Of a DNA stretch of 18,275 nucleotides, positions 1 through 14,897 are shown piece after piece. The notes beneath the pieces were generated by a model. That model was not told the DNA's origin. It made no database searches and worked only from the letters and a program-made list of their open reading frames with translations. Made by a program: the position numbers and the translations under genes. The stretch comes from an uncultured Burkholderiaceae bacterium (GTDB lineage: Bacteria > Pseudomonadota > Gammaproteobacteria > Burkholderiales > Burkholderiaceae). Each line of letters opens with the position of its first letter. Position 1 is the stretch's first letter. The stretch covers positions 1 through 18,275 of the forward strand of contig CALMPB010000377.1 in NCBI GenBank assembly GCA_937871985.1, written 5' to 3'.

Positions 1-160
1 TTGCCATCGGCATGGGCCTGCGAGGCCATTGCCGCAAAACCGAATGCCCGATAGGGGGAAGCTTGGCAACATATTCTTGACCGTCTCGCTCGACGAGGCA
101 GACACGCGAATTCACCGTGGCATGCAGAACGTCTTTGAGATCGTAGTGATCTGGCAGCAT
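1..160 (-). CDS. Partial CDS, possibly kinase-like fold (5' end only)
   Basis: This gene starts with ATG at 160-158 on the minus strand and runs off the left edge of the window, so only about 53 residues are visible. Its start codon shares one base with the stop of the upstream DUF91-like gene (TGATG), which implies translational coupling and makes the start convincing although no separate long ORF is left in the window. The visible N-terminus contains RVCLVERDGQEYVAKLPP. A hydrophobic strand, an acidic/Gly turn and a VAK tripeptide is the pattern of strands beta1 to beta3 of protein-kinase-like or aminoglycoside-phosphotransferase-like folds, where the lysine binds ATP phosphates. That reading is an inference from about 20 residues; no glycine-rich loop is obvious and the catalytic loop would lie outside the window. 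It could equally be an unrelated protein. It is the last visible gene of the defence-like operon. Confidence 0.6.
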   Translation of the reverse strand, partial: MLPDHYDLKDVLHATVNSRVCLVERDGQEYVAKLPPIGHSVLRQWPRRPMPMA

Positions 161-1251
161 CAGGTATCCAGTTTGAACGCGTCACTGATCTGCTCGATCG
201 TGAACTGTTGACGCAGCTTTGCTGCAGTGTTCTGGTTGGCGAACATGCCGTTCTTCCAGAATGCTTGTTCGCGGGGCACTGTGTGGATCCATTCGATCGG
301 AACGACCCACTCAGCTGCTTCGTCTGCCTCGTCGCCGTCATGACGATAGGTGCCAGCAAGTTCAAGCTCCCGAAGTGGCGTGGCAACACCATCCACGTTC
401 ACGACAGCCTGGTCAAACCGTTTGGCCTCGCCCGTCACAGTTCCTACGCCCACATATCCCGTCTTCGGGATGTGTACGAGCACTCTTGCCCCGACGGGCA
501 AGTTTTTCAGGGTCTGGGAAAACCACTTGCCACCTCCGCCTGAGACAAAGCCATACTTTCGTCCGTCGACCCACTGACGGGTGCCGCTGTCTTCACCAAA
601 GGACACATACCAATCAGTTCCATTCCACGGCTCGCGAGTCTTCGTTTTACGAGAGACCAACGATGTCGAGATTGCTGTCTGTCCTTCGTGCTCGACGAGC
701 CAAGTTCGGGCGAGGTAGGAGGATCCGTTATCGATGAAGTGGCGGAAAAAGACGACGTTGATGGGCACACCAAAGTCCTCGTTGAGGAACCGCACGATGC
801 GTTCCGTTGCCGAATCGATGCTGGCTGCGACGATCGTGAACGTTTGCGTAGCATTCACTTCTTCTGGAAGTGTCTCGTTGAAGCATTCTGCAAACGCTTC
901 TTCTAGTGCTGTGCCAGGCCGGTACTGATCGAAGATTCCTTGGATCTCTGCCCGACCGAGCGATGATACCCATGACCCATAATCAAGTGCTTGTGCTGTC
1001 ACATCCCGCGGGGTCTTGTCGCGCTTGAGTTCGATGACGTGCACCGCGGCCGTCTCGTCCAGTGCTAGAAGGTCGATGAAACCACCGAATGCTGTCGGAA
1101 CTTGGCGTCCGACGATCATCAGTGTCTCTCCCAGCATTGAGGGGTCCGACTCGATGTACGTTTCGAGCTGAGACTCCAATCCAATCGCGGTCGGCACGAT
1201 GCGACTCAGTTTGTCGCTATCAGCTCGCCACAGCCCCATTTCAACTGCCAC
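160..1251 (-). CDS. DUF91/NucS-like PD-(D/E)XK nuclease family protein
   Basis: A 363-residue protein. Residues about 55-92 hold a PD-(D/E)XK-type core: GGFIDLLALD with D60, then VIELKRDK with E74 and K76, then TAQALDY with Q87 and Y91. This is the arrangement of DUF91/NucS C-terminal nuclease domains, which cut DNA using a metal bound by the acidic residues. A middle segment (about 135-190) and a C-terminal part (about 215-363, with KYGFVSGGGGKWF, GYVGVG and FANQNT) are recurrent in full-length members of this family; the C-terminal part may bind nucleic acid, but that is an inference. The start is GTG; GAAGAGAG lies about seven bases upstream, which favours it over an ATG four codons in. 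It follows the AAA ATPase gene after 34 bp and overlaps the next gene by one base. Such proteins also occur alone in genomes, so its membership in the upstream system rests only on gene order. Family call is firm; the substrate is unknown. Confidence 0.85.
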   Translation of the reverse strand: MAVEMGLWRADSDKLSRIVPTAIGLESQLETYIESDPSMLGETLMIVGRQVPTAFGGFIDLLALDETAAVHVIELKRDKTPRDVTAQALDYGSWVSSLGRAEIQGIFDQYRPGTALEEAFAECFNETLPEEVNATQTFTIVAASIDSATERIVRFLNEDFGVPINVVFFRHFIDNGSSYLARTWLVEHEGQTAISTSLVSRKTKTREPWNGTDWYVSFGEDSGTRQWVDGRKYGFVSGGGGKWFSQTLKNLPVGARVLVHIPKTGYVGVGTVTGEAKRFDQAVVNVDGVATPLRELELAGTYRHDGDEADEAAEWVVPIEWIHTVPREQAFWKNGMFANQNTAAKLRQQFTIEQISDAFKLDT

Positions 1252-1285
1252 AGTTCACTCTCTTCAGTCTCATATCGTCACGCTA

Positions 1286-3865
1286 TTAATTGGCGTACGA
1301 TTTCACACGTTTGTGCCATGCCTTGAGCCATGCGATTTCACGGGCAACCTCGTCTGTCGTAGGAGGTACGTAATTTTCTTCAGGCGCGTTGTCATGTCTC
1401 TCAGCCCAGCCTGAGATTTTTCCATACGCAGATTGATACTCGTCGTGATCGGCTTGCGTGAACCTGGGCAAGATCTTGAGCATAGTTGGGCGAACTTCAT
1501 TCTTGCCGCGGTCGACCAGCTCATTAACGATATGTAGGTTCACAGCCCGTTCAAGTGTTTGCGAAAGGCGGCCAGTTAGAGCACCGATGCGAGCAACGTA
1601 GTCTTCCTCGCTTAGTTCCGCTCGTATCTTCGCAATTGCGGCCAAGTCTGACTCCATCAAGCTGATTCGCTGCGGAATATCCTTAGCCGCCCAAGGCAAC
1701 TCGTCGGAAATAAGACCCGGCTGAGCCTCACCTATGCGCTGTACTGAACGCTTCTCCAGGGAAACCGGTTTTCGTTCGGCTTCTTTGATTAGCGCCTGAA
1801 CAAAAGTGATCTCGTGGGTGAAAACAATAACCTGCCGAGTATCAGCCAACTCAACAAGCCTCTGCGCAACCCTAGTTCGCCTTTCGGAGTCCAGTGACGA
1901 TACTGGGTCGTCAAAAACTACTCCGGACAGCGATGCATCCAGTTCGACTTCGGTCAAAAATCCTGCTAACCCAAGCGCGGTCTGCTCACCTTCACTCAGG
2001 ACCAGCTCAACGGCAGCAGCGTGCGGCGAACCGACCAGGCCAGGCTGATGCTCCAGAGCCTGCTGCCGACCCCGACCGGTTCGATTCAGCGTGACACGAC
2101 GAAGGCCAAGCCGTTCTGTCTCTCGCGTAAAGTGATCCCGAACCTCCTGAGTAACATACTGCTCTGTCAGTTCGCCACGTTTGGTGGTAATAGAGTTCGT
2201 CGCAGCGAGCGGCTTGATGGCTTCAATTTTCTTACGCTGAGCGAGACGTTTGATTTCTGCCTCGATGGAGGTCTGTGCCTCTGCAAGCAACTTTGAATCC
2301 TGCAATTCAAGAACCTTGGAACTGGCTGCCGAACTGGTTTCCGCAAACTTGGTGTCGTCGATGCCCTCCGCAAGTTCACTTAGTTCTTTTGCTCGATCAG
2401 CGGCCGCAGTACTGACAGACTCAACTAATGGAGTTGGTGCAATTGCAGCTCCGGATTCATCCTTTAGCCATTCTTCGGCGCTGAGAACAACCTTGCACGC
2501 TTCCTCAAACCAGCTCCTTACCGAAGCAGTATCTTCGCCGCCCTCCTGCAGCGTGCCTAGCGCAGCACTAACAGCGGTCGGTAGAACACTTAGTGAATTG
2601 AGAGTATTCATCGCATCAATAAGAGATTCCGCAGCGTCATCCGCGTCCCGGGAAGTTGTATCTGAGACGAAAGTCTCGAACCTGACCAAACGGTCTGATG
2701 CTTCTTCACTTAATCTTTGTTGGCACAGCAAGCAGACTGCAGCTTCTCCGGTGTAAGGGAACTCATGATCGTGGTAGGCCTCGGTGAGTGAGAACTTCCT
2801 AGCTGCTTCCCACAGCAATCGCCATGTTTCCGATCCGACATTAGTGATGGGCTCAGCCTCAAAGGTATTCGAGGAAGCAATTCTCGCGGCCTCACGAAGT
2901 TGTTTGGCGTTCTGGCGCTGTGTCTTCAGATCATTCAGCGATTCCATGCTCACCATGCCGCCAAGCTCCTTGGCATGAACTTCGAGCGTTGACCATTCTC
3001 GTGAAAGCGCTAGTAGCCGCGTCTTTTCCTTGGCTGGGTCGCTGCCCTTAAGACGAGCCTCCTCAGCGAGCGCTTGTGCAAGCTGGCTATCGTGGTCATT
3101 TGTTAGGGCAAGTGCGACGCGCACCGACTCAGAGTCAGTATCAGCGGACAAAGAATCAAGAAAACGTGAAGAGGCCGTCCCGCTATGCAGCATCGGCAAC
3201 GAGGGCTTCTCAGTATCGTTAGTGGCGAGCCTCTTTCCAATCTCGAGAGAGATTCTTTCACAGGCCCCGGATAGCTGATCCAGGATCGTTAGCGCGGAAG
3301 GTTGGTAATCAACTTCAGCTGCCTTCGTGACGTAAGCGTCACCGCAATCTTCGTCGTAGAACCGAATACGTGATAAGTGCTTACTCGGTGAGTCTCCAAG
3401 CCGCCACGCATTTGGTTCACCTGCCTTTGAATATGAAATGGTGGCGGTCTGCGGAATCGGGTTCGAAGAGAACACGTCCCCGAGCAGTCGCCCGGACTTA
3501 AAACGAGCAGTCACTGACTCACGAATCAGGCGCGCGTATCCAGATTTTCCACTGGCATTGTTTCCGAAGACAATCGTGAGGCCACTTGCGTTGAAAGACA
3601 GAGTTTGCCCGGGCAACAGTGCATTGATCCCCGCAACTTCGGTGATCTCTGCAAGAGCGACTGCGTCTCCAGAAGCAGTCGAACCTGGGACATCCGCTGC
3701 CTCTATATCTAAGGCCTCTGGAAGCTCACCATTGATTAGCTGGTCTACTATTTCACTCACATCAGAGTCGGAGATTGGCTCATGATCGCATAACCGCGCG
3801 ACTACCGCCTTCTGCCAGTCATGGCGAGTGTTCACCCACGTAGCGAGTTCCTCGTTGAGTGTCAT
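1286..3865 (-). CDS. AAA_13 / RloC-PrrC-like ATPase with CxxC hook motif
   Basis: An 859-residue ABC/SMC-type ATPase. The Walker A motif GNNASGKS is at 101-108, an ABC-signature-like LSEGE at 623-627, Walker B VVFDDP at 649-654, a D-loop SSLD at 656-659 and a switch histidine in FTHE at 682-685. Between the two ATPase halves is a long, mostly helical, probably coiled-coil region with CLLC at 378-381, placed like the Rad50/RloC zinc hook. AAA_13 proteins include the anticodon nucleases PrrC and RloC, which often accompany restriction systems and cleave tRNA when restriction is disturbed. A C-terminal tail of about 150 residues after the ATPase contains R766, E772 and H824, which could be a nuclease triad, but the spacing is not the R-x3-E of PrrC and this is unproven. 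The start overlaps the GIY-YIG stop by four bases (ATGA), so translation is coupled. The gene looks more AT-rich than its neighbours, suggesting a separate origin. Confidence 0.85.
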   Translation of the reverse strand: MTLNEELATWVNTRHDWQKAVVARLCDHEPISDSDVSEIVDQLINGELPEALDIEAADVPGSTASGDAVALAEITEVAGINALLPGQTLSFNASGLTIVFGNNASGKSGYARLIRESVTARFKSGRLLGDVFSSNPIPQTATISYSKAGEPNAWRLGDSPSKHLSRIRFYDEDCGDAYVTKAAEVDYQPSALTILDQLSGACERISLEIGKRLATNDTEKPSLPMLHSGTASSRFLDSLSADTDSESVRVALALTNDHDSQLAQALAEEARLKGSDPAKEKTRLLALSREWSTLEVHAKELGGMVSMESLNDLKTQRQNAKQLREAARIASSNTFEAEPITNVGSETWRLLWEAARKFSLTEAYHDHEFPYTGEAAVCLLCQQRLSEEASDRLVRFETFVSDTTSRDADDAAESLIDAMNTLNSLSVLPTAVSAALGTLQEGGEDTASVRSWFEEACKVVLSAEEWLKDESGAAIAPTPLVESVSTAAADRAKELSELAEGIDDTKFAETSSAASSKVLELQDSKLLAEAQTSIEAEIKRLAQRKKIEAIKPLAATNSITTKRGELTEQYVTQEVRDHFTRETERLGLRRVTLNRTGRGRQQALEHQPGLVGSPHAAAVELVLSEGEQTALGLAGFLTEVELDASLSGVVFDDPVSSLDSERRTRVAQRLVELADTRQVIVFTHEITFVQALIKEAERKPVSLEKRSVQRIGEAQPGLISDELPWAAKDIPQRISLMESDLAAIAKIRAELSEEDYVARIGALTGRLSQTLERAVNLHIVNELVDRGKNEVRPTMLKILPRFTQADHDEYQSAYGKISGWAERHDNAPEENYVPPTTDEVAREIAWLKAWHKRVKSYAN

Positions 3866-5073
3866 TCCCAGCCTGCCTCATAATCTTTACCGCGTAGTCG
3901 CTGAGTCTGCGCGTCGTAGGTGTAGTTCACGATGCTGCCACTAACGATGAGGTCGACTGCTTGGTCAATGACCGGCCGCGGCACGATGAACCACTCGGTG
4001 GGGTCATACCCACGTCCGTCAGCGCCGACTTGATTGAGGTCCAAGCGCACCTCGGCGAAGACTCGGTGCAGCAGGTGTTCCAGCGCGGAGGTTTTCATGT
4101 TGTATGTCCGGTAGCTAGCCACGATGTCCACTGGTGCCATCAGGTAGGTAGGCGATTTCTCGGCCCCCTGAATTCTCTTCTCCACTTCGCCGCGCGTGAA
4201 GCCAATCTTGTGCAGGTCTTTCAGACTCGCGAGCTGAGGGTCCTCGCTCCGCGAGCGCAGCACGTAAATGTACCCGCTCGCCTCATCATCTCCGAAAATT
4301 TCGGGGGCTCCGGCGTCGACGACAATGAAGCCGTCTTCATCACTCAACCGAATCGCCAACGACTGACGGTACATGGCTGACTCGGTACCGTTCTCGAAGA
4401 TCACACGCAACCGCTCACGCTTGTTCTCGCGAACCGTTGACTTCTTGTACTCGGTCTCTCCGACCTCTGCCACAAACAGCATCACACCGTTGAGCACGAA
4501 GAACGCGCCAGGAACGATGCTTCCCATACCGGGATACGGATGTAACTTGCTGACGCCGTCGCGAAGTTCCTGGTGCTTATGCTCGAACAGCGGTGCAAAC
4601 GTCTCGAAATCATCGGCAGGACGCCTTCGAGCAGCTTCTCCGCTGTCAAACTGTTGCCGACGCACCGGCAGGTCCGAGACATCGAGGATTCCAGACTCAT
4701 CACCGAGCAGGTCGAGATCATCACTTTCGAGGAGGTCATCGAGAGACTCAGGCGCAGCCGGTGTTTCCAGCAAGCCAAACTCGTCGTCAAGATGCTTCAG
4801 TGCCGTGATCTTGTCGTCGTTTGCAAGGATGCCATCGAGCCGGGCACCGAGCTTTCGCTCTGCGATCTCCCGTGTCTGAGAGCTGGGCAGTCGATCATGC
4901 GCACGACGGAATTCCACGATCTCCAGGAACGCGCGCTCAAGACGATCCGAGGATGTGACCTTCTTCGGCTTCTCAGGAGCATCGAGCAACCCGTCGATGT
5001 CCGAGTCGAGAATCGCCTCAATGCTGGTCGGCGTGATGAAGTCGGCTGGCCCTAAGCTCGATGAATCGCTCAT
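3862..5073 (-). CDS. GIY-YIG nuclease family protein (T5orf172-like)
   Basis: A 403-residue protein with a C-terminal GIY-YIG domain. GYIYV is at 267-271, HKIGFT at 288-293, an arginine at 300 in EKRI, and a glutamate at 332 in SALEHLLH: these are the GIY strand, YIG strand, catalytic Arg and metal-binding Glu of the fold, in the order seen in T5orf172/MUG113-type domains. The first 140 residues are acidic and helical, with runs such as DDLLESDDLDLLGDE, and hold no domain I recognise; the middle (about 155-260) probably forms a beta-rich module. Predicted role: the metal-dependent DNA-cutting subunit of the operon, working with the helicase. ATG start overlaps the helicase stop (ATGA) and its own stop overlaps the AAA ATPase start the same way. 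All key GIY-YIG residues are present, so it is probably active. The target and its dependence on the methyltransferase are inference. Confidence 0.9.
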   Translation of the reverse strand: MSDSSSLGPADFITPTSIEAILDSDIDGLLDAPEKPKKVTSSDRLERAFLEIVEFRRAHDRLPSSQTREIAERKLGARLDGILANDDKITALKHLDDEFGLLETPAAPESLDDLLESDDLDLLGDESGILDVSDLPVRRQQFDSGEAARRRPADDFETFAPLFEHKHQELRDGVSKLHPYPGMGSIVPGAFFVLNGVMLFVAEVGETEYKKSTVRENKRERLRVIFENGTESAMYRQSLAIRLSDEDGFIVVDAGAPEIFGDDEASGYIYVLRSRSEDPQLASLKDLHKIGFTRGEVEKRIQGAEKSPTYLMAPVDIVASYRTYNMKTSALEHLLHRVFAEVRLDLNQVGADGRGYDPTEWFIVPRPVIDQAVDLIVSGSIVNYTYDAQTQRLRGKDYEAGWE

Positions 5074-7061
5074 GCGTCACCGCCCTCGGCTGTCGCAGCT
5101 GCACGCGCTTCCGTGGCACGCTGCTGCTTCTGACGCTGCAGAAAGAGCAGGATCTCGGCGTACCGCTTCTCAGTGGGGTCTTCAGATCTCACGTTCGGTC
5201 GACCGTTGAGCTTCGCCCACTGCTGAATCCTCGGCCACGCAGCCAATGCTTCTTCCTCGGTCACCTCAACGCGGGTCGCGGTGATCGAGTCCTGGATGAT
5301 GCGCAGCACACTCGGTGTGACCGACTTCGACAGCACTTCGAAGGCACGCTGGAACGGGTTGACCGAGTCGATGAGATTGATGTTGATGTCGTCGATGTTG
5401 ACGAACTTTTCACTCATCTTGATGAATCGCTTGTCGCCGACCTCGCGCACCTCACCGTTCTTGATCACCGAGTCAACAACGACTTGCTGACGCAACTCTT
5501 CGACCTGGGTCTCATTGAGATCCGGGTAGCGCTCGCGAATGATCTTCGGGATCAGCACCTTGTTGGTGGTTTCGGGATCAACTGAGCCCGCTGCGGCCTT
5601 CGCGAACGTGTCGTCTTGCAGGATCGTAGCCTTGAGATCGTTCAAGTCGGTCTCAACGATCTGCTTCACACGCTCAGACGATGGCTCTTTGAATCCCTTG
5701 ATCTTGATGACACCGGGCGCGGTCGCTGAGTCTTCACCTGTCCGCTTGGTCTTGAAGGTGAAGTTCTGCGCGAGCACCTGTTCCATGAGGAGGGAGGCTG
5801 TGATGGCCTTCAGCATGTTGTTCACCGAAACCTTCACCTCGCTTTGCGACGCGTCGGGTTCAGCGATCAGGTTGGTGAACTGTGCGTGATCTTTGCCGGG
5901 GCTGTCGCGGGTAACGCGGCCGATGATCTGAATGACCTCGGTCAGTGACGCACGATAGCCGACGGTGAGCGCGTGCTCGGCAAATGGCCAGTCGAAACCT
6001 TCCTTCGCCATGCCCAGAGCGATGATCACGTCGATGGTGTCGCGGTCTTTGGATGCGACCGTTGAGAGATAGTGCAGTGTTTCAGCGCGCGCGGCCTGAT
6101 CTGTGTCATCTACGAGATCAGCAACGCGGATCAGCTCTCCGTTGTCGTTACGGCGGATCACAATGACGCCAGTGTCCGGCTCGGTGTGGTCGACATGGCC
6201 GATGGAGTCGATGATGAATCCGACTTCTTCGATCTTATCTTTTGTCGACTCACCCGAGTTCACGTTGGGGATGTGGATGATTGTCTTCTTGTCGAGGTCG
6301 AAGACCTCTCCGATCGCTTCGGTGTAGCGACCCTGATAGAAGTGGTGACCGATGCCGAGCGAGTGCAGATGCTCGTAGCCGTTGAGTTGGTCATAGTAGT
6401 TGAACGTGACCGGCGTGAACTTCGCTTCGTCCTCCGCTGACAGCACTGGGACGGAGTCACCGCGGAAGTAGGAGCCGGTCATCGCGACGATGTGAACGTC
6501 GGAACCGTTCATGACGTCGCGCAGCAGTGCACCGAGTCGGCTTGATTCGGTGTCCGCTGAAACGTGGTGGAACTCGTCGATCGCGAGCACCGTACCGTTG
6601 AACGCTTCTGGTGCGAGCTTCTCGAACGCGAATCGTAGGGTGGCGTGAGTGCAGACCAATGTTGTGGCCGCCGAATCATTCAGGAAGTCGATGAATGCGC
6701 CGACTTTGCCCTGCGAGGAGCCTGGGTCGCAGAGGTTGTGCTTGTCTAGGATCTCCCAGTCGGCGAAGAACCCGAACTTCGTGAGGTTGGTTGAGGCGAA
6801 GGACGCACCGATCGAGCGTTCGGGGACGGCGACGATCACCTTCTTGCGTCCCTGGTTGAAAAGCTTGTCGAGTGCCACGAACATCAGTGCTCGGGACTTG
6901 CCCGAGGCAGGCGGTGCTTTGACGAGCAGGTGCTGGGCGTCGCGCTTCGCGAACACTCGCTGCTGCATCTCACGCATGCCCATCGCATCGGTGTTTACGG
7001 ATGCGCCGGTGCGCGCGTAGGTCACATCGACAATGTTCAACGGCTTCTTGATCTCGCTCAC
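5070..7061 (-). CDS. SF2 DEAD/DEAH-type helicase or translocase
   Basis: A 663-residue superfamily 2 ATPase. Motif I APPASGKS is at 49-56, motif Ia/Ib material around VAVPERS (77-83) and THATLR (138-143), motif II DEFHH at 162-166, motif III MTGS at 194-197, motif V GMAKEGFDW at 350-358 and motif VI QIIGRVTRD at 378-386. Both RecA-like lobes are therefore complete, as in the ResIII/HsdR-like helicases that move along double-stranded DNA. About 270 residues follow the second lobe; I recognise no nuclease motif in them, so cutting is likely done by the adjacent GIY-YIG protein. The start is GTG, sharing GTGA with the methyltransferase stop; AGGAG lies nine bases upstream and supports it. The gene sits between the methyltransferase and nuclease genes, overlapping both, which argues for a stoichiometric complex. 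Function as an ATP-driven translocase is known for the family; its role here is inferred. Confidence 0.9.
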   Translation of the reverse strand: MSEIKKPLNIVDVTYARTGASVNTDAMGMREMQQRVFAKRDAQHLLVKAPPASGKSRALMFVALDKLFNQGRKKVIVAVPERSIGASFASTNLTKFGFFADWEILDKHNLCDPGSSQGKVGAFIDFLNDSAATTLVCTHATLRFAFEKLAPEAFNGTVLAIDEFHHVSADTESSRLGALLRDVMNGSDVHIVAMTGSYFRGDSVPVLSAEDEAKFTPVTFNYYDQLNGYEHLHSLGIGHHFYQGRYTEAIGEVFDLDKKTIIHIPNVNSGESTKDKIEEVGFIIDSIGHVDHTEPDTGVIVIRRNDNGELIRVADLVDDTDQAARAETLHYLSTVASKDRDTIDVIIALGMAKEGFDWPFAEHALTVGYRASLTEVIQIIGRVTRDSPGKDHAQFTNLIAEPDASQSEVKVSVNNMLKAITASLLMEQVLAQNFTFKTKRTGEDSATAPGVIKIKGFKEPSSERVKQIVETDLNDLKATILQDDTFAKAAAGSVDPETTNKVLIPKIIRERYPDLNETQVEELRQQVVVDSVIKNGEVREVGDKRFIKMSEKFVNIDDININLIDSVNPFQRAFEVLSKSVTPSVLRIIQDSITATRVEVTEEEALAAWPRIQQWAKLNGRPNVRSEDPTEKRYAEILLFLQRQKQQRATEARAAATAEGGDA

Positions 7062-9775
7062 TTCTTCGCGCTCCTGGTCTTCTTCGCCAGGAGCTTGGTA
7101 GCTGCCTCAGCAGTCATGCGCTCGTACATCGCAAAGAGGTCAGCGAGCCGCTGCTCGTCTGTCTCGTAGCCACGCTTCGAGTAGATCGAGTCAACAAGCG
7201 CGTCGACCTCCGCGTGCGCAGCCCGTAGATCATCGGGCATCTTGTCCGGATCGTAAAGGTCGGCAAGGGTCAGCTCGCAGTGGTATTCGCGAATATCCAA
7301 CACTCTGAGAGCGGCGGAGGTCAGCCGTTCCTGTTGAGAGTTAGATAGCGGCGGCACCGGAAAATTGTTGTAGACAATGAACGCGCCGTATCTGTAGTCC
7401 GTCTTCATTCGACCGCCGACGGCGGCCAGCCAGGCCATGTGAATGCGCGAGGTAAGCAGCGAAAAAATCCAGGGCTCAGCATCGTAGACAGCATTCGCTG
7501 CGTCAGAAATAACACTTCCTTCGTCAAGATATCCAATCGGCACATAGTCACGCCGTTCAGAAGATACACGTGGGACTACCACTGACTCTGTCGCTTTGTA
7601 CGCGTTCTGCTTGAACCGGTTTGGGAATGCGGCGAATGCGCGAACCCCCGACTCTTCACGGCTATCACGCCACGAAGTGACCTGTTTCAGTCTTGCAGCG
7701 ATTGGCGACACAGAGCGAGCATCTGCAAGTTTCGAATCTGGAACCCAGATGCAGTATCTCTGAATGTCATTGATAAACTCTGCTGAGCCAACATACCGTT
7801 TTAGATAGAGCGCAGCACCCGGATCCTGCGCGAGCATGAGGCGGTGTTCTAGCTCGTCTACGATCAGATAGCCGCCGTCCTTCGGCATTGAACCTAGTAC
7901 CATCTTCGGCAGTTGCGGGCTGAGAACATGAGACCTACGGTATACAAAGACCGACGGCGCATCGGCAAGGTACCCGTTTATGTTCTTTGCCTCAACTTGC
8001 AGACCGTCAGTAAAGATGTATTTGGGGTTGGTGCTCTTCGCTCGCAAATTGATGACAGCGACCGTCACGCCCGCGTTGTGTTTCGCGTTGTTTTCCCACT
8101 TGAATGACGTGTATGCATAGCCGATCTCTATACCCTTGGCGAAAATCATTGGAAACATCAGGCCAACATGCTCTCCTTGCGAGACCGAGTTGGTTGTGAC
8201 GAAGGCTAGCTCAGCTTGCGTGCCCTCGATGTAGTCGGCGCCCTTTACGAACCAGAGCGCAATGTAGTCAAGGTCTTTCGAGTACGATCGGCTCCCGAAT
8301 ACGTATGGGTAGTCGGCCTTCATCTGTTTGCCCTGAGCCTTACCACCCTTATAGGGCGGGTTACCAATCAGATAGATCTCGCCGCCGTCGTTAGGGCAGA
8401 CCTTGTTCCAGTCAACTCGCGCTGCGTTGCCCTGTTGAACTTGCCCGGTCTCCTTCAAAGGGATCAGAGGGATAGCGAGGTTGAACTTCTCTTTGAACTC
8501 GGCGTTCATCTGGTGCTTGGCGATCCAGAGTGAGAGGATCGCGACCTCGACCGCGAAGTCGTCTATCTCAATTCCGAAGAAGTTCTCGATGTTGATCTTC
8601 GATTCGGCATAGAGCACCTGGTACCTGGCGTCCAGCTCGGTCAAGCGCTCCAGGATCGCGTGTTCCAGCCTTCGCAGTTCCTTGTAGGCGATGACGAGAA
8701 AATTGCCAGAGCCACAAGCTGGGTCAAACACCTTGATCTCGCTGATACGCGTGAGCAGAGCTTCGAGCTTCTTGACCGAGTCGTACCCGGCGTCAAATGA
8801 AGCCTTCAAGTCATCGAGGAAAAGCGGTTCGATCGTCTTGAGGATATTGGGCACTGACGTGTAGTGCTGCCCGAGGTCAGAGCGAGTTCCCGGCGTCACG
8901 ATGGCCTGGAACATCGACCCGAAAATGTCGGGATTGATCTCGCGCCAGATGAGCGTCCCGGACTCGATGAGGTACTCGCGGGCCTTCTTCGTAAAGTTCG
9001 GCACTACTTGGTCGGCCGACATCGTGAAGAGTCTTCCGTTGACGTACGGGAACGCCGCCAGATGGCTGGGCTTGTCTTCAGCTCGCTGCGTGTCGAGAGC
9101 CGTGAAGAGATCAGTCAGGAAGGCGGCGACGTCGGAGCCGTCGGCTTGAGTGTGGGAGCCGACAGCGTTTGTGAACTGGTTCGGTTCGAAGATGTCGGTG
9201 TCTTCGGCGAAAAAGCAGAACAAGAGCCGAGTGAAGAAGATGTTGAGCGCGTGGCGTCCACTCGATGCGTCAAGCAGGCCTGGGTTGGCATGTAGCAGCT
9301 CATCGAACAGCTTGCCCATGCGTTCCGCCGCCTTGACATCGGCATGTGTTTCGGCGACATACTGCGCCTTCTCCATCCCGGCCCACGGAAGGAAGAATGT
9401 GAAGTGCTGGTCGATTTCGGCAATCGGGAACCCGATGGTCTCGCTCGTCTTTGTATCGGTGGCGACAAGCTCGTCGAAGTCGGTCACAATAACGAAGCGC
9501 GTGTTGTATCGAACTACCGCGGGTGAGGTTTTCAGATCATCAAGCACCGCCAGCGGATCACTGGTCGTCTCTTTGAAGTAGACGACGTTCTTCTGGGCAA
9601 CCTCTGTCGAGGGGTCAACCGCAACGCTGAGGGAACCATTGCGAAGTCGAGTCACGTTGCCCTGCGGCTTGCCATAGGCGAGTAGCAGATCAAAAATGAA
9701 CTCGCGATTGTACGAGTCGCGCCCAGCCAGGGGCGCGACTCGGTCCTCCACTGCTTTGAGATTTAGCCTTACCAT
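7058..9775 (-). CDS. MmeI-family class I SAM-dependent adenine DNA methyltransferase
   Basis: A 905-residue protein. SAM-binding motif I FDPACGSGNF is at 350-359 and catalytic motif IV NPPY at 472-475, so it is a gamma-class N6-adenine methylase. A helical spacer precedes the methylase (about 130-310). A target-recognition region follows it, and the C-terminal part holds ADLYDPDKMPDDLRAAHAEV and an LFAMYERMT tail, the signature of the MmeI_C domain. MmeI-type enzymes carry a nuclease at the N-terminus, but here residues 1-130 show only VVYFKETTS where an ExK would be expected, so the nuclease appears lost or replaced. The ATG has GAGGAGAG eight bases upstream; that site overlaps a small palindrome CCTCATGAGG at 9787-9796. 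The gene follows the HTH gene after 58 bp and overlaps the helicase (GTGA). It probably modifies host DNA and supplies specificity to the system. DNA encoding the presumed recognition region is visibly AT-richer than the first half. Confidence 0.9.
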   Translation of the reverse strand: MVRLNLKAVEDRVAPLAGRDSYNREFIFDLLLAYGKPQGNVTRLRNGSLSVAVDPSTEVAQKNVVYFKETTSDPLAVLDDLKTSPAVVRYNTRFVIVTDFDELVATDTKTSETIGFPIAEIDQHFTFFLPWAGMEKAQYVAETHADVKAAERMGKLFDELLHANPGLLDASSGRHALNIFFTRLLFCFFAEDTDIFEPNQFTNAVGSHTQADGSDVAAFLTDLFTALDTQRAEDKPSHLAAFPYVNGRLFTMSADQVVPNFTKKAREYLIESGTLIWREINPDIFGSMFQAIVTPGTRSDLGQHYTSVPNILKTIEPLFLDDLKASFDAGYDSVKKLEALLTRISEIKVFDPACGSGNFLVIAYKELRRLEHAILERLTELDARYQVLYAESKINIENFFGIEIDDFAVEVAILSLWIAKHQMNAEFKEKFNLAIPLIPLKETGQVQQGNAARVDWNKVCPNDGGEIYLIGNPPYKGGKAQGKQMKADYPYVFGSRSYSKDLDYIALWFVKGADYIEGTQAELAFVTTNSVSQGEHVGLMFPMIFAKGIEIGYAYTSFKWENNAKHNAGVTVAVINLRAKSTNPKYIFTDGLQVEAKNINGYLADAPSVFVYRRSHVLSPQLPKMVLGSMPKDGGYLIVDELEHRLMLAQDPGAALYLKRYVGSAEFINDIQRYCIWVPDSKLADARSVSPIAARLKQVTSWRDSREESGVRAFAAFPNRFKQNAYKATESVVVPRVSSERRDYVPIGYLDEGSVISDAANAVYDAEPWIFSLLTSRIHMAWLAAVGGRMKTDYRYGAFIVYNNFPVPPLSNSQQERLTSAALRVLDIREYHCELTLADLYDPDKMPDDLRAAHAEVDALVDSIYSKRGYETDEQRLADLFAMYERMTAEAATKLLAKKTRSAKK

Positions 9776-9833
9776 GTGCTGTCTCTCCTCATGAGGTCTA
9801 TCTCAGCACCAACCACCGACATCGAAATCTTCA

Positions 9834-10031
9834 TCAGGCGGTACCTCCAGCATCTGAGGCGGCAGCGCCACCGTGGCGGACCCACTCGTCGACCTCCGTG
9901 GTTTGAAACTTCCAAAGTCGTCCGATCTTGTGTGCTGGCATGCCCTTGTCGGCAATCCAGGTGTAGACGGTGTCTTTGGTGACGCCGAGATGGGTTGCGA
10001 TGTCGTCGGCAGACAACCACGGCTCAGCCAT
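9834..10031 (-). CDS. Excisionase-family HTH DNA-binding protein
   Basis: A 65-residue protein that is essentially one winged HTH domain of the excisionase/MerR-like HTH_17 type: WLSADDIATHLGVTKDTVYT, a basic turn HKIGRLWKF and TTEVDEWV. These small proteins bind DNA as excisionases or as transcription regulators. A strong ribosome binding site (GGGAGGG about six bases before ATG) supports the start. It is the first gene of the minus-strand defence operon and ends 58 bp before the methyltransferase. In that place it is more likely a regulator of the operon, in the way controller proteins time methylation ahead of restriction, than an excisionase; no integrase is in the window. A palindrome 38 bp upstream is a possible binding site. 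The regulatory role is inference. Confidence 0.88.
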   Translation of the reverse strand: MAEPWLSADDIATHLGVTKDTVYTWIADKGMPAHKIGRLWKFQTTEVDEWVRHGGAAASDAGGTA

Positions 10032-10161: not shown

Positions 10162-10362
10162 ATGGAGTTTGAAGAGATCGGCTCGTTCCAAGGCGCACCC
10201 ATTCGTGTGCCGACCGACTACGGGTACCGCACGTGTGATCAGTGCGGTGGCGATTGTGATCCTGACCACATGGCAACCGACAGTGGCATCCGAATCGCAT
10301 TCATTTGCCGCGATCACGGGATTCAGTCGCTCATTGATCCGTTTGAAGATTTGAGGAACTGA
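10162..10362 (+). CDS. Small zinc-ribbon-like protein of unknown function
   Basis: A 66-residue ORF divergent from the HTH gene. It contains RTCDQCGGDCDPDHM and then FICRDHG: a CxxC followed by further Cys/His pairs, the pattern of a small zinc-binding fold. Codon third positions look coding, but the ribosome binding site is weak (GAGAAG about 11 bases before ATG). Its last 40 bp overlap the 3' end of the convergent hydrolase gene, so the two transcripts would be antisense there. I do not recognise the family. It may be a small accessory or transcription-related protein. It is not obviously part of either neighbouring operon, and a competing minus-strand ORF over the same bases (10075-10380) looks less convincing because it lacks a start signal and a recognisable domain. 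Confidence 0.6.
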   Translation: MEFEEIGSFQGAPIRVPTDYGYRTCDQCGGDCDPDHMATDSGIRIAFICRDHGIQSLIDPFEDLRN

Positions 10363-11477
10363 GCGACTGCCGATGACCACTTACTTGGGTCACTGTTCCA
10401 GTTGAGTGTGTGACCAGATTCGAATTCTTTTACCATCACCAAGTCTGGGCGCTGCAGGCGCAGGTCGCGCGCATCTGTGATCGGCACCGAGTCATCCCAC
10501 CTCCCATGCAGCATCAACATCGGGACGGTCAGCTCATGGGCTCGCTCGATCCAGTTCATCTCGTACAGAGGAATCGCCGAGGGCAGCCCAGCGAGCTGAG
10601 CCAACCCCGACGTTGTTAGCCACGGAATAGTGAGCTTGCCAGCGCTTGATGGCAGCCCTGATCGATTGCAGTTCACTTCGATCACCTCTGTCCAGTCGAG
10701 GACGGGTGAATCGAGCACGAGGCCGACGATCAATCCGCGGTACTCGGGGCGGTCAGCGAGTTGTAGCGCGATTGCTGCTCCCATCGACCAACCGAAGAGC
10801 ACTATTCCCTCCGCCCCTCGTCGTATTGCGTAGCCGATTGCCTCATCTACGTCGTTGGCTTCGGTTGCGCCGAGTGTTGAGTGTCCGTTGCCGACTTGGG
10901 GGCCTTCTCCATCGTTACGGTAGCTGACAACGAGTGAGGTATAGCCGAGTTCGGTCGCGACTTGAACCCCGCGAAGGGTCCCTGCTCGGGGGCTGCCGAG
11001 CCCATGAATGTGGATCGCCCAGGTGGTCGTGTTGCCGTTGATTCGCCAGGCTGGTGCGTCGCCGGCCGGCGTCTTGATGACGATGTCCTTATGGTCAAGC
11101 CCGGCATCCGCCGGCGTTGCGTAGTAGACGCCGCTCCATGAAACTCGATCACCCAGTTTTGGGTTCAGGCCTTTAGAGATGCCAGTCACGGTTCGAGCGA
11201 TGAGGCCCCGCCCGCGATCCTCGATCTCGACACCAAGCTGCACCCAACCACCCTGCTCAAACCAGAGATTGTAGATACCTGCCGCTGTGGTGCTGGGTGT
11301 GCGATCAAGCACGACCTTAAGTTGGTCGCCGCCGTCTTCAACTCTGCAGATCGTGAGATTGAATGATCGTGGTCCCACTGGTGCAGTGAGGCGTCGAGCA
11401 ATGACCCAACCAGTCGCAGCGCTGATCAAGGTGCCAGCAGAGGCCAGCAACCCGAGGATGGTCAGAATGCGTTTCAT
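10323..11477 (-). CDS. Membrane-anchored alpha/beta hydrolase
   Basis: A 384-residue protein beginning MKRILTILGLLASAGTLISA, a signal peptide or single membrane anchor (about residues 4-27), so the catalytic domain is probably outside the membrane. Residues 40-125 form an N-terminal region without a clear match. The alpha/beta hydrolase part has an oxyanion-type HGLGSPRAG at 158-166, the nucleophile elbow GWSMG at 229-233 (S231), an acid at D328/D329 in HGRWDDSVP and a histidine at H356 in ESGHTLNW; the triad is complete. Such enzymes cleave esters, thioesters or peptides; the substrate cannot be told. Its ATG overlaps the stop of the seven-helix membrane protein gene (ATGA), and it is the last gene of the XRE-ImmA operon. 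That suggests the membrane protein and hydrolase work together at the cell envelope. No terminator was found after it; its 3' end runs into the convergent small ORF. Confidence 0.88.
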   Translation of the reverse strand: MKRILTILGLLASAGTLISAATGWVIARRLTAPVGPRSFNLTICRVEDGGDQLKVVLDRTPSTTAAGIYNLWFEQGGWVQLGVEIEDRGRGLIARTVTGISKGLNPKLGDRVSWSGVYYATPADAGLDHKDIVIKTPAGDAPAWRINGNTTTWAIHIHGLGSPRAGTLRGVQVATELGYTSLVVSYRNDGEGPQVGNGHSTLGATEANDVDEAIGYAIRRGAEGIVLFGWSMGAAIALQLADRPEYRGLIVGLVLDSPVLDWTEVIEVNCNRSGLPSSAGKLTIPWLTTSGLAQLAGLPSAIPLYEMNWIERAHELTVPMLMLHGRWDDSVPITDARDLRLQRPDLVMVKEFESGHTLNWNSDPSKWSSAVAQFLKSSNGSMSD

Positions 11478-12493
11478 GAAGCACTCTCTTCGGCTCGTAT
11501 CTCGTTCTTCCTGGCTTTGCCCGGCGCAGCAGTGGGGGCATCGCCGAGCAGGTGCTGCTCAGCTCGTTCGAGAAGCGCGATCTCTGATTCAGAGACGTCA
11601 AGTTGCGCCTCGGGATCGAGCATGGCGTCCCTGATTTCGACGATTTGACGGTGGAGCCGTGCCTCTGGGTCATCGAAACGAGAGGTCTCAGGGAGCGCGC
11701 CACTGAGCCCGGGATGTTTCCGCAACGCTTGGAACCAGATCGGTTCAAGCTGCGCGATGAGCACATCGGTTTTCACGCGACGAAGACGGTTCTTTATGAA
11801 TCTCAGTGCGGGTTGACCTGCGAAGCCCATGCACAGGAACACGAAGGTGAGCACCGTGAGCGGGTTGTAACCGAGCGCCGCGGCGTTCATGAGGTCGATT
11901 GCGCCAGCAACGTGGGAAACATCCATGATGAGCACCACGATGCACAGTGCTACGCCGCAGGCTGACCCCAAAGCGAGAAGTGCAGCTGGGATTCGCGGGA
12001 TGCCGGTGTCGCTTGTGCATTGTCTAATAGCGAGTACGAGCATCGCAGTGAGCACGATTCCACAGTAGGCGAAAGAGACGATCGAGTAGATCGCGGCCAC
12101 GGGCTGAGCGCCCAGGTCCATCATGAATGTGGTGGTTGTGTCGCCTCTGTTGATGAAGAAGAACAGCGTGATGATTGCAGCGAGGGCCACGATGAGTGCA
12201 GGCACCCCCACTGTGAATCTCACGAGCCCCGGACGGTATTGGCCTGCGTGCATGACGCCGCGCCCGAGGAAGAAGAGACCAGTCATGAGCAGCCCGTCTG
12301 AGATCAGCGTTGCGAGGTTCGTATCGCCGAGCAACGGATCGATCCAGAGGTAGACATCGTCGATGTTCAAGGTCATCGCAACAGCGATCAAGATAGCGGC
12401 GTAGGTGATGCTGTGGTCGGTGCGGCCTCGGCGGAGCGTGAGGAGGCTGAGCACCAGCATCCACATCAACAGGGCAACTATTGCTTGAGTCAT
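11474..12493 (-). CDS. MAB_1171c-like (DUF6545) seven-helix membrane protein
   Basis: A 339-residue integral membrane protein. Seven hydrophobic segments lie at about 1-20, 29-49, 60-80, 93-114, 131-157, 166-190 and 208-227, followed by a cytoplasmic tail of about 110 residues. The tail has LEPIWFQALRKHPGL and then RLHRQIVEIRDAMLDPEA, which matches my memory of the MAB_1171c/DUF6545 tail (an Arg-rich helix ending in EIRD). Proteins of this family are annotated as putative transporters, but no transport has been shown that I know of; a receptor role is as plausible. In actinobacteria such genes commonly sit beside XRE regulators and ImmA/IrrE proteases, as here. It overlaps ImmA upstream and the hydrolase downstream (ATGA at both ends), so the three proteins should be co-translated. 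Family call is good; function unknown. Confidence 0.85.
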   Translation of the reverse strand: MTQAIVALLMWMLVLSLLTLRRGRTDHSITYAAILIAVAMTLNIDDVYLWIDPLLGDTNLATLISDGLLMTGLFFLGRGVMHAGQYRPGLVRFTVGVPALIVALAAIITLFFFINRGDTTTTFMMDLGAQPVAAIYSIVSFAYCGIVLTAMLVLAIRQCTSDTGIPRIPAALLALGSACGVALCIVVLIMDVSHVAGAIDLMNAAALGYNPLTVLTFVFLCMGFAGQPALRFIKNRLRRVKTDVLIAQLEPIWFQALRKHPGLSGALPETSRFDDPEARLHRQIVEIRDAMLDPEAQLDVSESEIALLERAEQHLLGDAPTAAPGKARKNEIRAEESAS

Positions 12494-12966
12494 CCGAAGA
12501 CCTCGCCGTAGCTGGAGTCTTTGAATGCCGAATTTCGAATTGCTGCAGCAAGACGATCCGCGAGGTGTTCTGCACTGATTTCGTCGGTTGAGTCGATGTC
12601 TGTGCGAGCGAAGAATCTCACCCTTACATCCGTTGGAATATCTGGGAGCAGGGCGTCGAGTTCTTCTCTGTTCAGCTCGCGACTTTCGTCATCACAGTGG
12701 CCGAGGATGAGGTGGGCAAATTCGTGCAGCACGAACTGCTGCCGGTGCAGTTCTGAGTCGGTGTGGATGAGCAGGATCAGGTCGCCGTGTTCCGCAGCAA
12801 GGAGAAGCGCGCAGAGACCTCCGTGCTCGGTGAGTGTGGAGAGTTCTTTGAGGTGGATCTTGCGGCCACGTTGATGTTCAAGTGTGGTTAGGAGTTCGTC
12901 GTAGCTGAAGCGATTGCCCAGACCGAGACCATCGAAGGCCTGGGAGACGGTCTGTTCGATGTTCAC
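12490..12966 (-). CDS. ImmA/IrrE-family metallopeptidase
   Basis: A 158-residue protein with HEFAH at 81-85 inside FVLHEFAHLILGH, the zinc-binding and catalytic HExxH of the ImmA/IrrE (DUF955) family; E133 in SAEHLAD is the likely third ligand. In ICEBs1 and related elements ImmA cuts the XRE repressor ImmR and so switches the element on. Here the upstream neighbour is an XRE protein, so that partner is likely but not proven. The start is GTG at 12966; AGGTGAG lies about seven bases upstream. It follows the XRE gene by 76 bp, in which I see no other feature, and overlaps the membrane protein gene by four bases. Coupling of protease and membrane protein in one operon suggests the protease may be controlled from the membrane. 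Confidence 0.9.
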   Translation of the reverse strand: MNIEQTVSQAFDGLGLGNRFSYDELLTTLEHQRGRKIHLKELSTLTEHGGLCALLLAAEHGDLILLIHTDSELHRQQFVLHEFAHLILGHCDDESRELNREELDALLPDIPTDVRVRFFARTDIDSTDEISAEHLADRLAAAIRNSAFKDSSYGEVFG

Positions 12967-13042
12967 GGTGTGCTCACCTTCCTCGCGAAAGCATCCCGGT
13001 GTCAGTGTTAGTACGGTTGACGCCTTCGTTGCTCGCTTACAC

Positions 13043-13459
13043 TCATTTCACTTCACTATCCAGAAATTCACTGATGGCTTGAAGAGCCTCGGGCGAGAGA
13101 TCGCCGAGGGTACGTGCGGCATATGACTTCACCTTCGCTGCACGCATAGAACGCACGAGATCAAGCTGCGCGTTGACCTTCTCAGAGCTTGAGATGTCTG
13201 ATGCGCCCGTGAGAAAGTCGACATCGACATCGAAATACTCGGCCAGCCCTGCGAACAGCTTTGGCTCTTGCACCTCGCGATGGCCGTTGATCATGTATGT
13301 CCAACGTGACCTGGAAAGGTTGATGTCGCGCTCTTTCAAGAACGCAGCGATTTGCGAGTATGACGGTTCTTCGCCGTCCTCGGCATGTTTCACATCCATG
13401 AGTAGACGCAGTCGCTTCTCCAGGACCTCGGCTGCTGCTGTGCGTTCGTTCTCAGCCAT
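13043..13459 (-). CDS. XRE-family transcriptional regulator
   Basis: A 138-residue protein with a Cro/CI-type HTH at about 34-85: SYSQIAAFLKER, then SRSRWTYMINGHREV as the recognition helix region, then FAGLAEYFDVDVDFLTG, the usual end of XRE domains that dock on position-dependent promoters. The remaining 50 residues are a helical tail, probably for dimerisation or cleavage by ImmA. I chose the ATG at 13459 because AAAGGAGAG lies about nine bases upstream; the reading frame is open further (to 13738) but that part would cross the operator array and codes for an implausible Cys/Trp/His-rich stretch. It is the first gene of the XRE-ImmA-membrane protein-hydrolase operon. It most likely represses both its own promoter and the divergent ArdC promoter through the repeats at 13526-13653. 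Confidence 0.9.
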   Translation of the reverse strand: MAENERTAAAEVLEKRLRLLMDVKHAEDGEEPSYSQIAAFLKERDINLSRSRWTYMINGHREVQEPKLFAGLAEYFDVDVDFLTGASDISSSEKVNAQLDLVRSMRAAKVKSYAARTLGDLSPEALQAISEFLDSEVK

Positions 13460-13538
13460 GTGACCGACTCTCCTTTCCCTTGTGGCGGGCCAGGTGTGCA
13501 GATGTTGCCGCCCCCTTGCAGAGCGTTGGGCATGACTA

Positions 13539-13567
13539 ACGATACGCCTTGAGTATGCACAAAACAA
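13539..13567 (-). promoter_or_regulatory. Candidate promoter of the XRE-ImmA operon
   Basis: On the minus strand TTGTTT (13567-13562) and TATCGT (13544-13539) are separated by 17 bp. The second 14-bp operator lies in the spacer and the first touches the -10, so a bound repressor would block it. The hexamers match consensus only in part. Confidence 0.4.
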
Positions 13568-13570
13568 GTA

Positions 13571-13599
13571 TTGCGCATGCTCAATCAAAGTGCTAGAAC
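13571..13599 (+). promoter_or_regulatory. Candidate promoter of the ArdC operon
   Basis: TTGCGC (13571-13576) and TAGAAC (13594-13599) are separated by 17 bp. The third 14-bp operator covers the -35, and the fourth and fifth lie downstream in the transcribed leader. The mRNA leader to the ArdC start would be about 190 bases. Hexamer matches are partial. Confidence 0.4.
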
Positions 13600-13752
13600 G
13601 GTAAGTCCAACAATATTTGGGCATGCCCAACAAATGACGTGGGGCATGAACCAATCTCTGCACAGAGGAGGTGCACCATGCGATACCCCCATGCCAAAAA
13701 CCGACCACCGGCCCATTCGCTGGGTCTGCTCCGCCCACCTCTTAGACGCAAT

Positions 13753-13774
13753 GCCACCGGGCTCACCCGGTGGC
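13753..13774 (+). other. Leader hairpin just upstream of the ArdC ribosome binding site
   Basis: GCCACCGGG and CCCGGTGGC form a perfect 9-bp stem with loop CTCA. No T-run follows, so it is not a classical terminator. It ends seven bases before GAGAGGAGG (13781-13789), close enough to affect ribosome access. A second strong ribosome binding site (GAGGAGG at 13666-13672, before ATG 13678) lies upstream; its frame reads into ArdC out of frame, so a leader ORF that melts the hairpin is conceivable. Confidence 0.45.
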
Positions 13775-13796
13775 GCATCGGAGAGGAGGCCGGGCG

Positions 13797-14897
13797 ATGG
13801 CCACGATTGAGGATCGGAAAGCAGCGCGAGACGCGAAGCTCGACGAGTTGCACGAGAAACTCGCTGGCGCGGTGGAACAACTCGTGTCAGGTGAGGATTG
13901 GAAACGAGCGCTCACGTTCGCTGCGAACTTCCGCAGCCGCTCATTCAACAACACGCTGCTGATCTGGGCACAGCATCAGGCGGCCTACGAACTCGGTCTG
14001 GTGCCTGACCCAGTCCCGTCGTATGTCGCCGGGTACAAGCAGTGGCAGGATCTCGGCCGCCAAGTACAGAAAGGGCAACCCGGGTATCAGATCCTCGCCC
14101 CGGTGACTGGTCGCTTCGCTTCAGCAACCCCTGCGGATGCGGATTCGTGGCGCAGGCTGCAGAAGTTCGAGAAGCCGCGCCCCGGCGAGGTGGTGCGGTC
14201 GAAGATGATCGGCGTGCGCCCCGCCTACGTGTGGGACGCCTCGCAAACTGCTGGCGATCCGCTCCCTGAAACGCCGCCACCGAAGATGCTCGAAGGCGAA
14301 GCACCCAAGGGTCTTTGGGCAGGCCTCGCTGCACAGATTGAAGCGGCAGGGTTCTCGCTGGGCGATGCACCGGATGCATCGTCAATTCATGGTGCGAACG
14401 GAGTGACGAACTACAGCGACCGCACCGTGTTCGTCCGCGCGGATATGGATGATGCCGCCCGGGTCAAGACCCTCGCGCACGAGTTGGGGCATGTGCTCAT
14501 GCACGACCCCGAAAGTGTAGACGTTCGCCTGCACCGCGGCATCGGCGAGGTTGAGGCTGAATCGGTGGCACTGATGATCGGTGCAGCACACGGCATGGAC
14601 ACGAGCATCTATTCGATCCCGTACGTCGCGAGCTGGGCAGCAAATGTGGACGGTAAAGAACCCGCCGAAATCGTTAAGGCGACCGGAGACCGGGTGCGAG
14701 CAACGGCGATGAAGATTCTCGATCAGCTCGATACCGAGCAGCTCGGCAATGGCACCCCTCCCGGCCTCGAACGGGATGCCCCGAAGCGACGTAGCCCGGG
14801 GGCAGAGCGGTCAGCTGCTGAGCATCGTCTCACGCGCTCGTCGGGTGCTATGTCTCGGCGAGAACCGGCTGTCACATCACCGAGGAGCCTGTCATGA
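13797..14897 (+). CDS. ArdC-type antirestriction protein (ssDNA-binding domain plus metallopeptidase)
   Basis: A 366-residue protein. Residues 1-150 hold the ArdC N-terminal ssDNA-binding domain, with FRSRSFNNTLLIWAQHQ (45-61) and GYKQWQDLGRQVQKGQPGYQ (79-98) as typical motifs. Residues about 170-290 hold an ImmA/IrrE-like peptidase with HELGH at 228-232 and an EVEAES segment (about 251-256) for the third zinc ligand. The last 50 residues are polar and low-complexity. ArdC proteins are carried by conjugative plasmids and protect incoming single-stranded DNA from host restriction. The ATG at 13797 is chosen over one nine codons upstream because GGAGG lies eight bases before it. It is the first gene of a plus-strand operon and overlaps the prim-pol gene (ATGA). 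Expression is probably controlled by the upstream operator array. Confidence 0.9.
   Translation: MATIEDRKAARDAKLDELHEKLAGAVEQLVSGEDWKRALTFAANFRSRSFNNTLLIWAQHQAAYELGLVPDPVPSYVAGYKQWQDLGRQVQKGQPGYQILAPVTGRFASATPADADSWRRLQKFEKPRPGEVVRSKMIGVRPAYVWDASQTAGDPLPETPPPKMLEGEAPKGLWAGLAAQIEAAGFSLGDAPDASSIHGANGVTNYSDRTVFVRADMDDAARVKTLAHELGHVLMHDPESVDVRLHRGIGEVEAESVALMIGAAHGMDTSIYSIPYVASWAANVDGKEPAEIVKATGDRVRATAMKILDQLDTEQLGNGTPPGLERDAPKRRSPGAERSAAEHRLTRSSGAMSRREPAVTSPRSLS

Follow-up and report, generated by a model that had tools for sequence, protein, structure and literature searches.

A new member of the dnmA-yeeB-yeeC restriction-like gene trio in a defence-rich and probably mobile element

Introduction

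In restriction enzymes of type ISP, a nuclease, an SF2 motor, an adenine methyltransferase (MTase) and a target recognition domain (TRD) are laid out on a single chain. Cleavage by these enzymes is reported to take place only on the convergence of two translocating enzymes coming from head-to-head unmodified sites (PMC7049714). For a set of separate genes, namely dnmA together with yeeB and yeeC of Bacillus subtilis, the idea of a Type I-like restriction-modification (RM) system is credited to Morgan 2009 (as given in PMC7261158). DnmA is described as resembling MmeI without a nuclease motif, the order dnmA-yeeB-yeeC as conserved, and YeeB and YeeC as having been assigned to defence islands by Makarova 2011, as cited (PMC9973331; PMC7261158). 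According to the same two sources, deletions of dnmA, yeeB and yeeC in B. subtilis left phage infection unchanged and deletion of dnmA left transformation unchanged, the system being termed a relic by the authors. In Vibrio crassostreae, deletion of dnmA or yeeB is reported to result in higher sensitivity to some phages (PMC9973331).

The DNA considered here is a stretch of 18,275 nucleotides, referred to in its entirety as the window. A sequence-only reading had proposed a candidate defence system in which an MmeI-family MTase, a helicase, a GIY-YIG nuclease and a RloC-like ATPase acted together. As reported below, the gene trio of MTase, helicase and GIY-YIG nuclease in the window is a solid addition to a known kind and lies inside a defence-rich mobile element, while linkage gives no support to a four-gene system.

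Gene layout and genomic setting

The genes, their motifs, their minus-strand order and the three 4-nt overlaps on which the sequence-only reading was built, i.e., at the MTase/helicase, helicase/GIY-YIG and GIY-YIG/ATPase junctions, are all present in the window (Table 1). So are the NucS-like gene and the further coupled gene it had placed behind the ATPase, with a gap of 34 nt between the ATPase and NucS-like genes and a single nucleotide (TGATG) shared by the stop of the latter and the start of the next gene at position 160. Given their length and their strong relatives in databases, the main genes are not chance frames. The gene start at the very end of the window gave no Pfam match above cut-off and no tblastn match in the loci examined, and on this downstream side the window probably stops at the contig end, since the longest contig recorded for its ATPase and NucS-like proteins measures 18,275 bases, as the window does. 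At the opposite side of the gene cluster, 58 nt separate the end of the HTH_17 gene from the MTase gene that follows, and the HTH_17 product, a short query, had no tblastn match (E 1e-4) in 69 other loci selected by helicase or GIY-YIG protein.

Table 1. Position and nature of the genes in the trio region of the window
Feature	Position	Strand	Product and best evidence
HTH_17 (excisionase-like) protein, candidate regulator	9834-10031	-	65 aa; Pfam HTH_17 E 4.8e-14
DnmA/YeeA-like adenine methyltransferase of the MmeI family, including a TRD	7058-9775	-	905 aa; five MmeI Pfam domains
YeeB-like SF2 DEAD/ResIII-type helicase/translocase	5070-7061	-	663 aa; Pfam DEAD E 5.2e-8
YeeC-like GIY-YIG (T5orf172/MUG113) nuclease	3862-5073	-	403 aa; MUG113 E 3.3e-14, T5orf172 E 2.2e-12
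AAA_13 / PADLOC PDC-S06 ABC ATPase, CxxC zinc hook, helical C-terminal domain	1286-3865	-	859 aa
NucS_C-like PD-(D/E)XK-type putative nuclease, PADLOC PDC-S11	160-1251	-	363 aa; PDC-S11 E 7.9e-151
Start of further coupled gene, cut by window end	1-160	-	53 codons

From position 13770 onwards, the plus strand carries genes for an ArdC-like antirestriction protein, a primase-polymerase, a DUF2637 protein and a ParB-like protein, and on account of this gene content a plasmid or an integrative element is the probable source of the window. The ArdC-like protein (13770-14897, plus strand), encoded by the same element as the trio, combines an ArdcN match (E 4.3e-10) with an M78 peptidase domain. Four consecutive minus-strand genes occupy positions 10323-13738 and encode a protein devoid of Pfam match, a weakly M78/IrrE-like protein, a DUF6545 protein and an alpha/beta hydrolase; 4-nt overlaps link all of these genes but the first.

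The methyltransferase

The MTase of the window is an evident relative of MmeI, with Pfam E-values of 2e-97 for the MmeI MTase domain and 9.2e-73 for the TRD and an alignment to the MmeI structure 5hr4 that spans residues 91-899 (E 1.6e-175). The nuclease activity of MmeI is reported to require D70, E80 and K82 (PMC4833311). In the window protein, the position of the E-x-K motif reads Y66-F67-K68; D54 and K68 may still correspond to D70 and K82 of MmeI. Among the 47 distinct trio MTases possessing the N-terminal nuclease region, the column of the E-x-K glutamate is occupied by H, Y, F or L in every case and never by D or E, and an incidental [DE]-x-K is found elsewhere in the nuclease-region stretch of four of them. 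At the level of sequence, MmeI's own nuclease motif has thus been lost from the window MTase. The PADLOC model REase_MTase_IIG (PDLC03598) nonetheless matches this protein over nearly its full length (E 4.5e-285). As such, trio MTases may be misnamed complete type IIG enzymes by PADLOC despite the missing nuclease glutamate, and in the window this label hides the probable separate cutter, i.e., the product of the GIY-YIG gene. In a resistance plasmid of Proteus terrae (L007:8029-10005), the trio MTase is missing its front part and begins at a copy of IS26.

The helicase and the GIY-YIG protein

In an alignment of 15 helicase sequences, the motifs GKS, DEFHH, TGS, GFDW and GRxTRD are invariant. 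Searching solved structures with the helicase profile gave no close relative, DHX58 being matched weakly only, and the corresponding sequence search with the GIY-YIG protein returned nothing significant. In the GIY-YIG protein, nine positions (G267, Y270, K289, G291, R300, E332, H336, E360 and W361) show no variation across all 61 distinct sequences. This set leaves out L007 and L025, in which no frame exceeds 250 aa, L037 and L051, whose coordinates mark them as near copies of L035 and L039, and repeats from the same genomes. By analogy with the family, R300 and E332 are presumably the catalytic pair. In one genome (G588, L111:8174-11014, minus strand), a single frame of 946 aa joins helicase residues 1-517 to GIY-YIG residues 23-393; lacking about 146 C-terminal helicase residues, this fusion may be the decayed product of an in-frame deletion.

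Conservation of the trio

The comparison set comprised 69 loci other than the window (70 with it). Selection by helicase gave 43 IMG/VR viral-contig loci with a few near copies among them, 10 genome loci and 4 plasmid loci, whereas selection by GIY-YIG gave 12 plasmid loci chosen for taxonomic spread out of 230 matching records. In the helicase-selected loci, the GIY-YIG gene lies directly behind the helicase gene in 39/43 viral, 9/10 genome and 4/4 plasmid cases; conversely, the helicase gene is found upstream in all 12 GIY-selected plasmid loci. An MTase gene stands upstream in 34/43 viral, 9/10 genome and 16/16 plasmid loci. As for the exceptions, the viral loci without GIY-YIG gene are L022, whose match stops at residue 549, L049, which runs into a contig end, and L064 and L065, whose helicases are partial, and all nine viral loci without MTase carry less than 1 kb of DNA upstream. 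At the one genome locus lacking the GIY-YIG gene (L108:7945-10755), helicase residues 19-610 continue in frame into a tail that resembles a permease (APC-type by eye), and the 19 kb examined contain neither an MTase nor a GIY-YIG match; this frame is likely the result of a rearrangement or a misassembly.

Between helicase and GIY-YIG genes, no insertion was seen among the 64 loci having both, in an adjacency test that tolerated gaps of up to 700 nt, and a start codon follows closely behind the helicase gene in 55 of 61 loci (window included). Behind the MTase gene, a close start codon, be it of the helicase or of an inserted gene, is found in 36 of 52 loci (window included), and the distance between MTase and helicase matches exceeds 150 nt in 15 loci. 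Four of these 15 are plasmids, and their annotation places extra genes in the gap: one hypothetical protein in the first, an IS5 transposase in another, a RelE-type toxin-antitoxin pair in Synechococcus (L071:3206-3735), and a Schlafen-like (AlbA_2) protein plus further genes in Actibacterium (L068:1224-3723).

The split RM-like unit of MTase, helicase and GIY-YIG nuclease claimed from the sequence is thereby borne out: plasmids from Actinomycetota, Pseudomonadota, Bacillota and Cyanobacteriota show the trio in this order too, as do viral contigs. The trio is widespread, the helicase being matched in 264 of 72,556 plasmid records at E 1e-5, with at least 80% of its length covered in 153 of them. 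Among genomes, a full helicase match was present in 1/296 of a class sample (five other matches were weak) and relatives in 10/396 of one order; in a second draw of 383 genomes from that order, matches were confined to genomes already found.

The ATPase and its linkage

The likeness of the ATPase to RloC put forward by the sequence-only reading holds for the head and the zinc hook. As in RloC and PrrC, a Rad50-like head is split by a coiled coil bearing a CxxC hook and followed by a helical C-terminal domain with E and H: the head has Rad50/SMC matches, long helices flank the hook in the structure model, and C378/C381 are invariant in aligned relatives. In the tail, E772 and H824 are invariant in 36/36 sequences, and the chains best aligned to this domain, with weak resemblance, are HEPN-type toxins. 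The anticodon nuclease (ACNase) triad of RloC is reported as R-x3-E...H (PMC2610378), but the R-x3-E spacing is absent from the window ATPase, where the position four before the glutamate is an invariant serine (Ser768) instead of an arginine. A further difference from RloC and PrrC is that no type I system is linked to this protein, which matches the PADLOC candidate PDC-S06 over nearly its full length.

Regarding linkage, the ATPase profile found nothing in any of the 69 other loci of the comparison set, of which 64 have the GIY-YIG gene and 60 of these 64 extend at least 3 kb beyond it. Reciprocally, helicase and GIY-YIG genes are absent from the examined flanks of 10/10 ATPase loci, one of which (L003) shows a weak match to a methyltransferase domain 3 kb away. 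Of the co-occurrence that had been set beforehand as the check, the keeping together of the trio was thus observed, whereas the four overlapping genes occur together in no other locus examined, and the claim of a four-gene system that includes the ATPase fails accordingly. In the order sampled, helicase (10 genomes) and ATPase (8 genomes) co-occur in 0/396 genomes, which alone is weak evidence since only about 0.2 shared genomes are expected by chance; five of the eight ATPase relatives are at 26-29% identity and one is G001, the sample centre, itself reached via its ATPase. Scanning viral contigs for the ATPase gave no relative, and a genome scan gave three loci with no trio within about 10 kb and no helicase anywhere in those genomes. 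Seven plasmids matching either the ATPase (four) or the NucS-like protein (three) are annotated without the trio; some of the matching genes adjoin other defence genes. In searches of the open-licence literature, no listed title or abstract linked an AAA_13 gene to the trio.

The longest contigs of the best relatives were further compared by size (120, 120 and 119 of 120 sizes per protein set), an equality that does not prove one contig. Sizes common to helicase and ATPase are 5175 and 619864 (0.44 expected by chance). The latter belongs to Dermabacter vaginalis, in which two helicase relatives (P0053 and P0086) and an ATPase relative (P0165) each have a longest contig of 619,864 bases; a second joint case of ATPase and trio may be found in this species, the equal contig size not being proof of a shared contig. 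In the samples examined, the ATPase is a neighbour and not a conserved part of the trio.

The NucS-like gene and other genes behind the trio

The NucS_C match of the NucS-like protein (E 1.2e-4, 22.5 bits) is just under the Pfam cut-off of 24, two of the listed relatives carry the NCBI name PDDEXK family nuclease, the PADLOC candidate PDC-S11 is matched nearly full-length, and a search of solved structures gave nothing significant. In genome G490, a NucS-like gene 75% identical to that of the window lies directly behind the GIY-YIG gene and starts on the last base of its stop (TAATG). Relatives exist in 9/396 genomes of the order; helicase and NucS-like protein co-occur in G490, where they belong to the same gene cluster, and in G635, where only a distant piece of 90 residues is found. 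The 13 other NucS-like loci gave no methyltransferase, helicase or GIY-YIG match. At a solitary NucS-like locus (L138), a weak HTH match lies 7 kb away. Longest-contig sizes are shared by helicase and NucS-like relatives in four cases (8227, 19439, 50206 and 1072763; 0.30 expected by chance) and by ATPase and NucS-like relatives in two (4004 and 5654; 0.64 expected), with the same proviso on equal sizes. In the loci examined, the NucS-like gene is an occasional trio accessory and mostly solitary.

The genes that follow GIY-YIG genes frequently belong to the conflict class: the ten scanned encode a reverse transcriptase, an OLD-like protein, Abi_C (twice), PRTase-CE, DUF4062, DUF3644, DUF4357, GMT-wHTH and one protein without match; elsewhere, ApeA-HEPN and SIR2 with HerA occur. 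A dedicated slot for a fourth gene was considered and rejected: coupling behind the GIY-YIG gene (14/56, window included) is not commoner than at 150/522 other frame ends of the same loci, a control that includes spurious and antisense reading frames. Such linkage counts caution against declaring a new multi-gene system on the basis of 4-nt overlaps alone.

Discussion

The reading preferred here, to which a probability of about two in three is given, is that MTase, helicase and GIY-YIG genes form one ATP-dependent RM unit of the DnmA-YeeB-YeeC kind, while the two genes behind them, for the HEPN-like ATPase and for the NucS-like protein, would be separate defence genes collected in the same mobile element. 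In favour of this reading are the gene order kept across loci, the conserved GIY-YIG residues, the loss of the nuclease glutamate from the MTase, the helicase/GIY-YIG fusion of G588, the phage sensitivity of the Vibrio crassostreae deletions and the type ISP precedent; against it stand the absence of phage and transformation effects in B. subtilis, the possible origin of the G588 fusion by deletion and the possible joint case of ATPase and trio in Dermabacter vaginalis. By extension from MmeI and DnmA, the MmeI-like protein would read a short asymmetric site and methylate one adenine. On unmodified DNA, the MTase would load the helicase, which would then move along the duplex, and, attached to the helicase, the GIY-YIG protein would cut when motors meet or stall. 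As such, the unit is best read as a split counterpart of type ISP: recognition, motor and cutter, which form a single chain in type ISP, would be divided among three chains with GIY-YIG as the cutter. Were cutting to depend on two unmodified sites in suitable orientation, the newly replicated chromosome would be spared. MmeI-type enzymes are reported to rely on hemi-methylation for protection (PMC7261158), and therefore one daughter would be unmarked after replication; it is this daughter that a two-motor rule would protect. Counting against a single complex, the solved-structure searches gave MmeI for the MTase and no close relative for its two partners. With its intact motifs, the trio in this actinobacterial-type island offers a testbed for how single-strand marking avoids the self-cutting of newly copied DNA.

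A layered system, in which the trio would be a first line, the zinc-hook ATPase a coupled suicide effector kept silent by the intact trio and released on blocked restriction, like PrrC with EcoprrI, and the NucS-like nuclease a further arm, is rather unlikely. It would account for the 4-nt overlap of GIY-YIG and ATPase genes, for the RloC-type head with its hook and HEPN-like end, for the possible Dermabacter vaginalis case and for the position of the NucS-like gene in G490, and ABC-HEPN genes adjoining RM systems are reported as a known theme (PMC3710099). These points are outweighed by the absence of the ATPase from the other 69 loci, of helicase and GIY-YIG genes from the examined flanks of the ten ATPase loci and of any shared genome among the 396, as well as by the unremarkable coupling behind GIY-YIG and the missing R-x3-E spacing. 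Less probable is a decayed unit whose only remaining roles would be methylation and the control of genes, a proposal made for B. subtilis (PMC9973331; PMC7261158). In that precedent YeeB and YeeC are reported without stretches of C-terminal domain and without antiphage effect, but in the window the three genes are full length and coupled, with helicase motifs and GIY-YIG residues intact.

It is a still longer shot that the trio, as a split, translocating and GIY-YIG-cutting counterpart of type ISP, constitutes a separate restriction type and doubles, in this plasmid-like island, as a sensor for two coupled effectors. Under such a scheme, the zinc-hook ATPase with its unorthodox HEPN-like RNase tail would fire upon blocked restriction, the second effector would be the NucS-like nuclease recurring behind the trio, and the ArdC-like antirestriction gene would let the element cross into hosts with such systems. 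Finally, a type IIG/IIL enzyme, with the cutting done by the MmeI-like protein and the other genes as bystanders, would suit the PADLOC label but is highly improbable given the E-x-K glutamate replaced throughout and the conserved partner genes.

Comparison with known systems

In agreement with the sequence-only reading, which had set the locus apart from BREX and DISARM, PglZ and BrxC/BrxL as well as DrmA and DrmB are missing from the tables for the ORFs scanned (10 with PADLOC, 10 with NCBIfam), a scan that stops at window position 1 and in which the MTase is represented by the best 25 of 44 PADLOC families; the only DISARM-related matches are to DrmMI, on the MTase. PDC-S06 and PDC-S11, matched by the ATPase and the NucS-like protein respectively, are PADLOC candidates only. 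With MmeI (type IIL), the window MTase shares full-length homology from residue 91 on, but the E-x-K glutamate is missing and motor and cutter are separate genes. The type ISP enzymes LlaGI and LlaBIII have the same complement of functions, i.e., nuclease, SF2 motor, adenine MTase and TRD for an asymmetric site, whereas in the window these functions would be spread over three genes with a putative GIY-YIG cutter. The closest likeness is to DnmA-YeeB-YeeC of B. subtilis and its homologue in Vibrio crassostreae, where an MmeI-like MTase without nuclease motif is likewise followed by an SF2 helicase and a T5orf172/GIY-YIG protein, the likeness being one of domains and gene order as given in published descriptions; a PF20473 match is present in the B. 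subtilis control genome. While differing from the B. subtilis trio by the HTH gene in front and by the ATPase and NucS-like genes behind, the trio of the window is of the already described dnmA-yeeB-yeeC kind, an under-studied restriction unit.
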